64,000 nt of DNA, taken from contig NZ_CP060204.1 of assembly GCF_014250475.1 (NCBI RefSeq), positions 1,811,001 through 1,875,000 of the forward strand, read 5' to 3'. A model generated the notes under the pieces. That model was given only the letters and a program-made list of their open reading frames with translations, ran no database searches and was not told the DNA's origin. Below are positions 3,287 through 58,974 of the stretch, piece after piece. Within the stretch, counting starts at the first letter, position 1; each line of letters opens with the position of its first letter. The stretch is from Selenomonas timonae. Lineage in GTDB: Bacteria > Bacillota > Negativicutes > Selenomonadales > Selenomonadaceae. The translations under genes and the position numbers were made by a program.

Positions 3287-3991
3287 ATGGAAGTAACTTA
3301 TTTGCTGAACAGCGGATTTCTTGTCCGCGTGGACGATGTGCTGCTGGTCTTCGACGCATTTGACGATCCTGCAGGCGTGCTGCCGCAGGCCTTGGAACAC
3401 GAACGCTACGAGCGGCTGTACTTCTTCGCCTCTCATGCGCATTTTGACCACTTCAATCCGAATATCACACGCTTTTCTGCCAAGGCGACGCGTTATCTCT
3501 TGAGCAAGGATATTCGTGCCCACGGGGGCGCTGCACTCATGCCGCCGGAACTGACGAGCTGGATCGGCGTCTATGATACGTGGAAGGACGACCGTATTGC
3601 AGTCACATCCTTTTCCTCGACGGACGAGGGGACATCTTTCCTCGTCGAGGTGAATGGAAAGGCGCTCTTCCACGCCGGTGACTTCAACTGGTGGGATTGG
3701 ACGGGGGACACGAGCGAGAACCGAAAACTCGCAGAGAATGCATTTCGCAAGCAGATGAAGCGCCTTGCAGGCCGCTCCTTCGACCTTGCCTTCTTCCCCG
3801 TGGACGGGCGTCTCGGTCCCTCGATGGAGCGCGGTGCAAAGGTATTCTGCGCCGAGACGCATCCGAAGGCGCTCGTCACGATGCACTCCGTCGGCTATCC
3901 TGCGTGGCAGCCATCTGCGGATTTCTTCGAGGAGGGGCGTGGGATTCCCGTCTGGTCACCGCAGACGGCGGGCGAGCGGCATTCTTTTTGA
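3287..3991 (+). CDS. Metallo-beta-lactamase-fold hydrolase
   Basis: A 234-residue protein of the UlaG/YtnP-like metallo-hydrolase group. The metal site motif HxHxDH is complete (SHAHFDHF, H50, H52, D54, H55); later candidate ligands are H in [12 protein letters not shown] and H in VTMHSVG. Substrate unknown. The start ATG has AGGAG about 11 bases upstream, seven bases after the YitT stop, so it belongs to the same operon. A longer in-frame extension into the YitT gene is rejected because it lacks a ribosome binding site and reads through the neighbour's coding sequence. Confidence 0.86.
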
Positions 3992-4026
3992 AATATGTAT
4001 TGAAATATAGGAGGGCTTTCGGTAGA

Positions 4027-4635
4027 ATGGGGAAGAAATTTTATCTCTTGACACTCGGCATTGCCGTCGCGGTCATCGCTGTATTGTTTGCGGCGCACAG
4101 CGGGAGTGCAGGGATGTCATTCAATATGCTTTTGGATCAGAATAAAGGAGAGAACAGAGCTGTGGCAAATCGCATTGCAGAATTTACGACAAACAAGGGG
4201 ACCTTCGAGGTGGAGCTCTTCGAGGACAAGGCACCCATTACGACGAAGAACTTCATCGACCTCGTGGAAAAGGGCTTCTATGACGGACTGATCTTCCACC
4301 GCGTCATTGACGGCTTTATGATTCAGGGCGGCGATCCGAAGGGCAACGGGACGGGCGGCCCCGGCTACACGATTCCCGATGAGTTCGATCCCGCGCTGAA
4401 GCATGACGACGAGGGTATTCTCTCGATGGCAAATGCAGGTCCGAATACGGGCGGCAGTCAGTTCTTCATCACGCTTGCCGCAACGCCGTGGCTCGACAAC
4501 CATCATGCTGTCTTCGGCAAGGTCGTCGAGGGCATGGACGTCGTGCGCGACATCGGCCACACGCAGACCGGTTATGGCGATCGTCCCGTGCACGATGTCG
4601 TGATTGAGAAGATTACGATCAAAGACGCGAAATGA
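4027..4635 (+). CDS. Cyclophilin-type peptidyl-prolyl isomerase, membrane-anchored or exported
   Basis: Catalyses cis-trans isomerisation of X-Pro bonds. Residues about 48-200 form a compact bacterial cyclophilin with the active-site segments [25 protein letters not shown] and [12 protein letters not shown]. In front is an N-terminal hydrophobic helix ([19 protein letters not shown]) with a basic start and no lipobox, so the enzyme is probably anchored to, or exported through, the cytoplasmic membrane. An AGGAGGG site lies 11 bases upstream of the ATG, which is rather far. The stop overlaps the next start as ATGA. Confidence 0.92.
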
Positions 4636-4928
4636 ACTACGCATATCTTTTATTGTGTGCGGATGACAGCATCTATGCAGGTTGGACGAACGACCTGCAG
4701 AAGCGTCTGCACGCACACAATGAAGGGCATGGTGCGAAGTACACGCGCGGGCGCAGACCTGTCCGCCTCGCCTACGCCGAGGCATTTGCCACGAAAGAGG
4801 AAGCGCAGAGCAGGGAGTGTCAGTTCAAGAAGCTGCGCCGAACGGAGCGCCTCTCGCTCATTCGTGCAGGACAGGACGATGCGCAGACAAGAGCGCTGAT
4901 CGAAGCGGTCAATACAGGAAAACTATAA
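4632..4928 (+). CDS. GIY-YIG nuclease-superfamily protein (UPF0213 type)
   Basis: A 98-residue stand-alone GIY-YIG domain like YhbQ/YazA. Visible core elements are [17 protein letters not shown] (the GIY...YIG equivalent, with GWT in place of YIG), the arginine in [11 protein letters not shown], and the glutamate of SRECQFKKL. These proteins are widespread; nuclease activity is known for some members, cellular role unclear. The ATGA overlap with the cyclophilin gene implies translational coupling. Confidence 0.9.
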
Positions 4929-4944
4929 TAAAGGGGATTATTTC

Positions 4945-6932
<1,988 letters not shown>

Positions 6933-57200: not shown

Positions 57201-57943
57201 CTCTTCCGGACGGCGGCACAGCCGACCGCGTTGCAGCGGTGCTGGACTGGACATACGACCTGCGCGGCACGGCGCATATCCATGCCAAGACCAGTGTGAC
57301 CGAGCTAAAGCGGCAGCAGGCGGTGGAGGAAGAGGTGATCGCACCATTCCTGCCCGCCGTCGGCAATGCTGAAAGTATGCAGCCGGAATGGGAAATGCCG
57401 CGCTTCCTACGCGCGTCGGAACGGGAGCATCTGACCCCGATGGAGCGCGGTACGGCAATGCACACAGCCATGCAGCAGCTCGATCTCGATCATGTGGAGA
57501 ATATCGCTGCCATTGCGGCGCAGGCCGACGAACTCCTGAAAAAGGGGATTCTCACGGAAGCAGAACGCAAAAGCATCGATGTCGGCAAAATCTGGAAATT
57601 TGCCTCCTCGCCGCTGGGGCGTCGTATGCGCACGGCAAAGGCGATCTACCGCGAGCTGCCGTTTGGACGGCTGCTCCCTGCGCGGCGCTACTATGAGGAG
57701 GCAACAGATACATCCGATCGGATCTTCCTGCAAGGCATCATCGACGTACTCTTTGAGGACGAGCACGGCGACTACATCCTACTCGACTACAAGACGGATC
57801 GCAGGATTTCCGCTGTCGCTGCGCGCAAGCGCTACCAGTTCCAGATCGACCTCTACTGCGACGCCGTGGAGACCATCCTGCACAAGGCGGTCAAGGAACG
57901 CTATCTCTTCCTGCTCGATACGGGCATAGAGGTAAAAATGTAG
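54179..57943 (+). CDS. addA: ATP-dependent helicase/nuclease subunit A
   Basis: Motor and nuclease subunit of AddAB, 1254 residues. UvrD-type helicase motifs appear in order: AAAAGSGKTRVLVERI (about 23-38), VLTFTKAAASEMRERI, MVDEYQDTNGLQE, VGDVKQSIYRFRLADP, MTIHRSKGLEFPVVFL and LYVAMTRAQEKLIL. The C-terminal nuclease has ILLDYKTDR. GGGGAGG lies about ten bases before the chosen ATG; ATG 54188 is also possible. Last intact gene of the repair cluster. Confidence 0.96.
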   Translation: MAQMTFTADQKKAIETHGQNILVAAAAGSGKTRVLVERIISQVRSGTLSLDRVLVLTFTKAAASEMRERIEAALNEEIAALAVGGGFASDLHQRIGALERQRVLLTGADISTFHSFCQRLIQSHIDATDISPNFRIAGEQEITLLKNKVVEDLLEQEYQRAENGDVDGFLAFSDAYGGVRGDDEQLQGDILSLHAFSLSQPSPETWLRAQGQESADTPYWARSGFSMLADELKQALSQLCADYAEAAALLVAGDANLRAAAAKCLDALEGNREIYEALRSSLAHFLHAEDEAAWEIFLTEAATAKKQRKNIPRKAVENYDAAVGARLKKLTEKIHAAWDGCIGQLPTTADELCETENRANASIRQYVRLTTAFHKAFQKEKLQRGILDFSDLEHTALALLCAQPALLQEKPTTPMPTEIAEELRRHYDAIMVDEYQDTNGLQEGILSQIARDANRFIVGDVKQSIYRFRLADPALFQATYRKYRTNGVDGTLVTMSENFRSRAEVLEPINEIFSQIMSEESVEIAYDDTARLNPGRQFDDLPQGRSLVDPLEIDLLRADYSTSEDEEAEEERKAFEVEAHFIARRIDELKSEGYVLQNGEPLRNRDIVILLRGAKERAGLLLNALRARNIPAYADDTAGYFEASEIRMILSLLAVLDNARQDTPLAAVLTSPMIGLTMAKMAELRVRTPSGSIYDMLTGAAGDEAAENALERIRRWRRHALTHSVPELLWALYRETGYYDYVGTLPGGTLRQANLRMLIDRAADFERTNERGLFRFLRYIDALKRRSTDLSVARTLGESEDVVRIMTIHRSKGLEFPVVFLANIAGTFNTQDTRGDLLYHAHMGIGLRVSENTTAGRQKYDTMARRKVKNIIQRESIAEEMRILYVAMTRAQEKLILTGTLSITRTGRDALEQLRAFCLKYAQTQEAQFPASAILSAKSYLDWITLALMRHPDGALLFEGEKEIAHRQPTHPQARFHVRILDESVRAAQTEAQEATDDILSAVRVDKPLPDGGTADRVAAVLDWTYDLRGTAHIHAKTSVTELKRQQAVEEEVIAPFLPAVGNAESMQPEWEMPRFLRASEREHLTPMERGTAMHTAMQQLDLDHVENIAAIAAQADELLKKGILTEAERKSIDVGKIWKFASSPLGRRMRTAKAIYRELPFGRLLPARRYYEEATDTSDRIFLQGIIDVLFEDEHGDYILLDYKTDRRISAVAARKRYQFQIDLYCDAVETILHKAVKERYLFLLDTGIEVKM

Positions 57944-57960
57944 GATACGGAGGTTTTTTC

Positions 57961-58516
57961 TTGAACTATCGGAATCTGTATGATGAAATCATTGCCGGAC
58001 TACCCGACGATGTTCGGATTGATGACTATGCTGTCGGACGACCATGGACGTATATGCGTGCAGGGGGACTAGGGGGTATTTGCATGACGATTCCAGCGTA
58101 CACGCGCCCGCGTCTGCGAAAGGAGAGCTTTCTCGGCTGCTCCCTGCGCGAAGCGGGGGAGTATGTGAGATCCTTGCAGGGACAGTAGGCGTCCATCGTC
58201 GCCGCAGCGATCAATGTATAGGAATCGCTGATAAAATGAAGTCCGTCAGATTGGCACAGATTTTTCTGTCCGATTGAGGCAGCAAACCGGACGCATAGCC
58301 AGAGCTATGTGGAGGATTTGTCGACACAGAGAGGGCAAAAAAGATACGCCAAGATGGCGGTGCTGAATTTATCAGTGCGTCCTTAACTATGGTGTAGACG
58401 GTCTCTCTGGCTTTACCGTGACCGATGTGGCACTCGCCGCCGATCTCGTGCATTTCGGCTACGAGACGGATATTGCAAACTGCGGCAAGATGGCGGATGT
58501 TCTTCCTCAATCTGAT
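57961..58516 (+). pseudogene. Broken DUF4213/DUF364 putative heavy-metal chelation gene
   Basis: The first 75 codons, from a TTG with GGAGG upstream, read as an intact DUF4213 start (YDEIIAGLPDDVRIDDYAVG, then FLGCSLREAGEYVRS). A TAG follows at 58186, yet the same frame continues with ASIVAAAINV, which matches the family's conserved alanine-rich segment, before a second TAG at 58219. The C-terminal DUF364 tail is recognisable at 58382-58498 (LNYGVDGLSGFTVTDVALA, then the GKMADV end). About 100 internal codons are missing and a short insert lies between the pieces. Full-length relatives have about 250 residues. Nonfunctional by sequence. Confidence 0.75.
58220..58383. mobile_element. MITE-like insert with imperfect terminal inverted repeats
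   Basis: A 164-base non-coding segment inside the pseudogene. Its ends, AGGAATCGCTGATAAA (58220-58235) and the reverse complement of TTTATCAGTGCGTCCT (58368-58383), match at 13 of 16 positions, with CTGATAAA perfect. An internal hairpin ACAGA/TCTGT lies near 58256-58269. It encodes no transposase. The MITE reading is an inference; the short flanking TA duplication is uncertain. Confidence 0.45.
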
Positions 58517-58626
58517 TGAATATTTCTGATTGCTTCTATATTCAAAGATAGATGCACGGATGCAGGAATCATTCAGTCTGCGGCGAATTAGTCCAATACA
58601 AAACATATTGAAAGGAAGCGAGTGAA

Positions 58627-58974
58627 ATGACGGATTGTATCTTTTGCAGGATTGCACAGGGAGAGATTCCTTCGACAAAGGTCTATGAGGACGATTTGGT
58701 GCTAGCGTTCCGCGACCTCGATCCGCAGGCGCCGGAGCACGTTCTCGTCATTCCGAAGAAGCATATCGCAAGCGTGCTGGATTTCGCAGAAGAGGATCGG
58801 GAACTGGCTGCGCATATTCTGACCGTAGTTGTGCCAAAGATTGCACGAGAGCTCGGTGTCGATGTAGGCGGCTTCCGCCTTGTGACGAACACCGGTGCAG
58901 ATGGCGGACAGACGGTCGGACACCTGCATTTCCATCTTCTCGGCGGACGCTCCCTCGCATGGCCGCCGGGCTGA
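58627..58974 (+). CDS. HIT-family (HINT-like) nucleotide hydrolase
   Basis: A 115-residue histidine-triad protein that hydrolyses purine phosphoramidates. The triad is in GHLHFHLLGG; the opening CIFCRIAQGEIPS supplies the zinc-type CxxC, and HVLVIPKKHI is conserved. AAGGAAG precedes the ATG. Between the pseudogene and this gene lies an 8-bp inverted repeat TTGAATAT/ATATTCAA (58517-58546) of unknown meaning. Confidence 0.95.
   Translation: MTDCIFCRIAQGEIPSTKVYEDDLVLAFRDLDPQAPEHVLVIPKKHIASVLDFAEEDRELAAHILTVVVPKIARELGVDVGGFRLVTNTGADGGQTVGHLHFHLLGGRSLAWPPG

Follow-up and report, generated by a model that had tools for sequence, protein, structure and literature searches.

What is the short segment that lies between two pieces of a broken gene near the end of the 64,000-nucleotide stretch of Selenomonas timonae DNA analyzed here (the window), and why should its inside fold so well? 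From the letters alone it had been read as a MITE-like, non-autonomous element of about 164 bp (58220-58383) with 16-base imperfect terminal inverted repeats, internal hairpin potential and no coding capacity, which may have inactivated its host gene. The repeats are present: AGGAATCGCTGATAAA at 58220-58235 and AGGACGCACTGATAAA, read on the minus strand at 58383-58368, are identical at 13 of 16 bases, and two matches to the family end pattern were held by 1 of 100 shuffles of the window. The element stood, and only its limits had to be revised. The column identity of the aligned copies, together with the target columns, places it at 58221-58382, one base shorter at each end, as 58220 and 58383 are target bases (Table 1). 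It is 162 bp long with 15-bp ends, has no coding capacity and contains no transposase gene.

Table 1. Positions in the window of the focal element, its parts and the remnants of its host gene; the very short elements are placed in G000
Feature	Position	Strand	Remark
Host gene 5' remnant (DUF4213 domain)	57961..58188	+	Ends at in-frame stop 58186-58188
Left target 4-mer TATA	58217..58220	.	Unequal to right 4-mer in focal copy
MITE copy, 162 bp	58221..58382	+	Ends set by 33 aligned copies
Left terminal inverted repeat GGAATCGCTGATAAA	58221..58235	+	97-100% per column in 33 copies
TGAA facing TGAA at 58364-58367	58237..58240	+	Tandem G-A mismatch; own reading of the arms on the predicted fold
Conserved hairpin core	58247..58356	+	Model R2, 98.6 bits; sole match in the window
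AGAT facing AGAT at 58352-58355	58248..58251	+	Tandem G-A mismatch, predicted fold
AGAT facing AGAT at 58342-58345	58258..58261	+	Tandem G-A mismatch, predicted fold; 10 bases past AGAT at 58248
Right terminal inverted repeat GGACGCACTGATAAA (family consensus GGAAGCACTGATAAA)	58368..58382	-	
Right target 4-mer TTAA	58383..58386	.	
Host gene 3' remnant	58383..58520	+	85% over 41 residues against the end of the intact S. massiliensis gene
Short elements L058, L054, L059-L062	G000 77432-77469, 632334-632390, 594777-594834, 1259570-1259628, 1691719-1691766, 1275948-1275984		

Searched against its own 2.35-Mb genome, the focal segment gives 41 matches (E <= 0.001), two of which overlap to leave 40 places, and this rules out a single-copy relic. 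The 33 matches kept for alignment each cover at least 156 of the 164 bases, so that the genome holds the many dispersed copies with the same ends that the original prediction had said would support it. When these 33 copies are aligned, the terminal 15 bases agree at 94-100% per column and the four A/T-rich target columns that flank either end at 64-82%; from the fifth outside base identity drops to 27-48%, which excludes similarity continuing across the proposed ends. Exact 4-bp direct repeats flank 18 of the 33 copies, against a mean of 3.9 and a maximum of 12 exact duplications when the right flanks were dealt at random in 10,000 trials. The focal copy itself lacks a matching target duplication (TATA against TTAA).

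For ten exactly duplicated copies, the flanks were joined and compared with 14 genomes of the genus. At least six of the ten (L019, L022, L025, L030, L031 and L042) have an empty site in a relative, with an unbroken match across the junction; for L031 the match to genome G008 is continuous over 254 of 254 positions at 95%. In G005 the sites of L026 and L036 are interrupted, by 160 bases (L026, where the gap was not read) and by 157 bases (L036), and the core is present in G005 at the L036 site. The junction of L023 is spanned only by a 75% match (G001), and L021 gives an ambiguous picture because another related place exists in the own genome. Empty sites in relatives show that the MITE has moved in the past; they do not cover movement at the present day. 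The filled L036 site in G005 (C1 1480696-1481118) has flanks 99-100% identical to those of the own genome, other places being far more divergent, and from these sequences a recent exchange between species is suggested.

The duplicated target bases had been expected to give the transposase family, and the 18 exact duplications are accompanied by an IS5-family partner with matching ends. IS5 targets are four-base, A/T-rich sites of the YTAR kind. The exact duplications found here are TTAA (seven), TAAA (three), CTAA (two) and six single ones; the rule is met overall, with TAAA and the six single ones fitting less well or not at all. The own genome has three IS5-family copies whose ends correspond to those of the MITE: GGAAACACTGATAAATTC on the left and GGAATCACTGATAAATAG on the right, the latter replaced by GGAATCGCTGATAAATAG in one copy. 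The copy that was scanned matches NCBIfam NF033581 best, at 239.9 bits (cut-off 140), the copy in L277 has TTAA on each side, and the right end of the copy in L285 is the same 15 bases as the left terminal inverted repeat of the focal MITE. Since two of the three carry an in-frame stop and the third is shortened, its left end not found, none of them looks active. At L056 broken insertion sequences lie nested: one of the IS5-family copies interrupts, or adjoins, a Mutator-type (PF00872) transposase gene that is itself shortened (3923-4828 and 4779-6013). In eight other genomes, a partner was sought through DDE_Tnp_1 matches only. Genome G704 had no such match, and none of the 26 loci fetched from the 84 DDE_Tnp_1 matches in the others (G015, G286, G214, G224, G368, G239 and G580) was bounded on both sides by local ends, whose patterns were derived from few copies with 3 mismatches allowed. 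A neighboring element is present at L284 (G015), and one end lies nearby at L290 (G286).

Judged by its ends, the element is a new MITE of the IS5 kind, and mobilization by an IS5-family transposase is the best explanation for its spread. With dispersed copies, common ends, 4-bp target duplications, empty sites and an IS5-family partner in hand, we regard the identification of the focal segment as a MITE, which was the original prediction, as practically certain. In a search of relatives it turned up in 15 of 41 genomes, namely all 14 of the genus, counting its own, and a single genome from a further genus of the family. The ends and the inside of the element do not always travel together. Very short elements of 37-59 bp have similar ends and little or no core, so an element can have such ends without the core. 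Six places in the own genome match only inside 58247-58356 and have other outer stems (the second hit in L026, L050, L051, L052, L053 and L055), and in L046 the left end is not recognizable. Two own-genome cores with ends GGGAATCACGAACGCA (L026 338-446 and L051 1002-1110) lie within a longer shared repeat, with similarity on both sides.

The two pseudogene pieces beside the focal copy are genuine: both belong to one DUF4213-domain gene that in Selenomonas massiliensis, near a HIT-family gene, is open throughout and without the element. S. massiliensis has an own element copy just upstream of the HIT-family gene (L162 2248-2403). A flanking gene of the focal locus is 99% identical in Selenomonas sp. 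FOBRC6, which together with the remaining named neighbors indicates an oral Selenomonas. The suggestion that the element may have inactivated its host gene holds only in part: it sits where the gene lost 389 bp (absent between 58214 and 58383), but there is also a separate in-frame stop at 58186-58188, and the copy lacks a matching duplication and looks mosaic. The left half of the focal copy equals L020 in 81 of 82 columns; for the right half the closest copy is L027 (74 of 80), and the switch between them falls at the tip of the hairpin. Compared with the best single copy, the mosaic gains 6 columns, which ranks second among the 33 (the strongest is 8, and five others reach 5; the twelve strongest gains lie at 4-8 columns), and a signal that ranks only second of 33 can be no more than suggestive. 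Plain insertion into the host gene is not favored, with 389 bp missing and flanking 4-mers that differ. A recombination event between two copies that deleted the missing part agrees better with the data, the order of events remaining unresolved; by inference, recombination between two direct copies may explain the mosaic, the deletion and the unequal flanks together.

The hairpin is where the locus departs from what had been seen in it. Its potential was recognized correctly (the predicted RNA fold has -65.7 kcal/mol and z -5.4, and 0 of 200 shuffles folded as low), and its conservation across the class and beyond went unseen. Over 51 copies, 95.7% of cells form standard pairs, double changes occur in 30 of 34 pairs, and none of 500 shuffles did as well on any of five measures; when one arm was slid by 1-3 columns, pairing fell to 30-47%. 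Forty diverse copies still pair in 90.9% of cells, with double (compensatory) changes in 33 of 34 pairs and 379 cells, against 108 when shuffled. Owing to kinship among the copies, the double changes are not independent events, a relatedness that the slid control retains. Both alignments of pairs were fitted by a model and lean towards standard pairs, G-U included. One core collection took 48 of 67 sources under a stricter limit (second readings of the same place), and another rests on 38 chosen loci. Near-invariant unpaired bases frame an internal loop, CAAGG facing RACGCAG, with A in column 38 in 39 of the 40 copies, G in column 40 in 38 and A in column 93 in 39.

The fold also prefers one strand. 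In the paired columns of 71 cores (86 rows minus 15 second readings of the same place) there are 209 G-U against 35 A-C combinations, and in the diverse set of 40 cores 102 against 28. The plus strand gives the more stable fold in 71 of 73 elements; for the focal copy it has z -5.4 as RNA and -2.7 as DNA, compared with -3.0 and -1.75 for the minus strand. Among the two-by-two internal loops of the predicted folds, 135 of 206 are GA/GA; the opposite strand has none among 148, and mutated random hairpins have 2 among 81. At least one such motif is found in 65 of the 73 elements and two or more in 43. Neighboring motifs (n = 70) are spaced by 10-12 bases in 31 cases and by 19-21 in 23, which in the predicted folds would correspond to about one or two helical turns. 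It must be said that the RNAfold parameters favor GA/GA loops and that the elements are relatives. We nevertheless hold it very likely that a strand-specific fold is under selection.

A first covariance model, built from 28 core copies, detected the core in 71 of the 189 genomes searched within the family, which represent 19 of 30 genera. Within the class it did so in 67 of 300, spread over 28 of 97 genera and a total of 13 families, and 24 of these 67 genomes lie outside the own family. In 398 genomes drawn from the phylum, a second model found it in 33. Of these, 27 do not belong to the class, and 10 of the 27 have a best score of at least 45 bits and up to 70. Class and phylum are here taken to be Negativicutes and Bacillota. 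Because minus-strand readings of true elements score 22-37 bits with the first model, the weakest matches in the phylum need care. The specificity control covered 78 loci surrounding an unrelated gene, 400,460 bases in all (L162 and L221, which hold or adjoin an element, were left out of 80); at E up to 10 it gave two matches, one at 13.8 bits and L213 at 64.7 bits, the latter, from a Clostridia MAG, itself lying between inverted ends. Among 22 genomes accessed by way of named loci, matches were absent from 17 and present in five: S. massiliensis, Centipeda periodontii, Anaeromassilibacillus sp. An200 (3), Firmicutes MAG ADurb.Bin193 (5) and a Clostridia MAG (1, E = 6.5e-4). Whole-genome counts with the first model reach at least 118 cores (G214), at least 64 (G033), at least 42 (G224), at least 41 (G034) and at least 37 (G215); the second model counts at least 148 in S. 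massiliensis and at least 117 in C. periodontii, scoring having been capped at 150 candidates for each genome. The model search found no core in one member of the genus, G002, and blastn gave no match to phages or plasmids at E <= 1e-5. The outer ends vary widely between groups. In G015, from another genus, there are 26 matches, and the left end is GGGCGTGTTGATTAA at all 15 places where the ends were read (14 and L071). A stretch TGATWAA recurs in many of the ends, so that these may equally have diverged step by step from a common ancestral end or been newly captured.

No Rfam family was found that accounts for the core. Rfam 15 has no match in 57900-58700 at E <= 1, nor at the element in 39 of 40 divergent loci; a known Rfam family is thus ruled out at the element, save for a sub-threshold T-box match at L256 (1343-1664; 55.4 bits, gathering score 93), which is on the other strand and spans the element. 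L256 may be a T-box leader with the element inserted inside it. T-box matches below threshold also occur nearby in L134, L146 and L247.

One rival reading makes the hairpin an RNA element domesticated by the host, which would stabilize or process host transcripts, its transposon ends serving only to spread it. A few copies do sit in highly expressed operons. One own-genome core lies between rplB and rpsS (L053), another copy is found between rpmC and rpsQ (L070) and another in a 16S-23S spacer (L067), the proteins at these sites being named from a reading of their translations. The latter two are the only strong cores of G013, at L070 1500-1603 and, after tRNA-Ile, at L067 1466-1574. Copies L137 and L159 occupy the same site, with flanks common to two genomes of one genus. 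Orientation, however, speaks against such a role. Of 135 sites, 61 are tandem, 23 convergent and 19 divergent, while 24 coincide in part with a called ORF and 8 lie at an edge; in the tandem settings the element runs with the genes in 28 and against them in 33. The own genome alone is likewise without bias, so host regulation through orientation can be set aside; its convergent settings number 12 and its divergent ones 3. ORFs were called by length alone, and the ribosomal site L053 is visibly miscalled. As the copies point at random relative to their flanking genes, a role in host transcripts is not favored and would leave the strand preference unexplained. At least six of the ten tested sites are, moreover, empty in a near relative, and we judge domestication by the host to be very unlikely.

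The pairing might also be explained without any function. In an ordinary MITE, palindrome correction during repair, together with descent from few masters, would keep the arms complementary while the fold did nothing. Such correction gives changes on both sides of a pair, the copies have a common ancestry, and mosaic patterns are seen among the 33 own copies. Yet it should erase mismatches, and the same tandem G-A mismatches persist across families; nor does it offer a reason for G-U standing far above A-C. We find this account improbable, and we give similarly little weight to a hairpin that acts as single-stranded DNA and is recognized by a protein during replication or transposition. A role in DNA would suit the random orientation towards genes, and tandem G-A and G-T pairs are tolerated in DNA too. 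The DNA fold of the focal strand is only modestly better than that of shuffles (z -2.7), however, and to our knowledge the cut-and-paste movement of IS5-type elements has no single-stranded stage.

The explanation that we prefer, a MITE moved by an IS5-family transposase and containing a hairpin whose plus strand selection keeps foldable, we put at even chances when the inferred RNA is counted in. We take the folded strand to have some function, as yet unproven; whether it functions at the RNA level is, without transcript data and with no sigma-70-like promoter found by pattern in 57900-58700, just as finely balanced. If it does, the folding strand would be an RNA read from the element and bound by a partner common to many Bacillota. 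The near-universal loop CAAGG / RACGCAG may be its recognition site, and the tandem G-A pairs, which recur roughly once in each turn of the helix, would keep the rod stable while denying RNase III a long regular helix. Since copies point either way, the fold would serve the spread or survival of the element rather than a host gene. This mechanism of partner binding, loop recognition and RNase III evasion we offer as doubtful. Somewhat better placed, and still short of an even chance, is a broader possibility: that DNA transposons throughout the phylum enclose between their ends a structured RNA outside Rfam, comparable to the IStrons but without splicing, in which a G-A rod carries a near-universal loop read by a common bacterial protein or the ribosome, and that the transposon ends were repeatedly replaced or remodeled while the RNA was kept.

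MITEs are usually regarded as short-lived parasites whose insides are unimportant. Here the same fold is kept across a class and beyond while the ends vary, and some genomes hold more than 100 copies. Its strand-specific conservation is the surprising part and is well supported, as far as comparison of sequences can carry it; RNA action and a binding partner are inferred. Should the fold be an RNA, it would represent a new kind of partnership between RNA and a DNA transposon, and its many variants would amount to an extensive natural collection of mutants in tandem G-A motifs. The element is, in addition, a ready marker of genome plasticity in oral Selenomonas.

No published account of the element was found in openly licensed full texts, the only ones searched, so that one may exist elsewhere; nor does the searchable literature describe a conserved fold of such depth inside a MITE. 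REP-type elements are moved by RAYT tyrosine transposases, without target duplication. The Selenomonas element differs in its IS5-type ends and 4-bp duplication, and given the latter it does not qualify as a REP or REPIN. REPINs are like it in being miniature mobile hairpin DNA with many copies per genome (PMC3116915). IStrons, which are known also from Selenomonas, resemble it in joining a structured RNA to a DNA transposon, and are distinguished by a self-splicing group I intron and IS605/IS607-type ends, neither of which the Selenomonas element has (PMC4227781). It is not counted among them, there being no Rfam match at E <= 1 in 57900-58700 that would reveal a group I intron. The closest likeness is to the IS5-derived MITEs of Porphyromonas gingivalis, which are also short, non-coding and multicopy, with predicted stem-loops and terminal inverted repeats near those of IS5-family elements in the same genome (PMC4596501). 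Their inside is a minisatellite and their target duplications are variable, whereas the Selenomonas element has a constant 4-bp duplication and a single hairpin that is conserved across bacterial families (PMC4596501).
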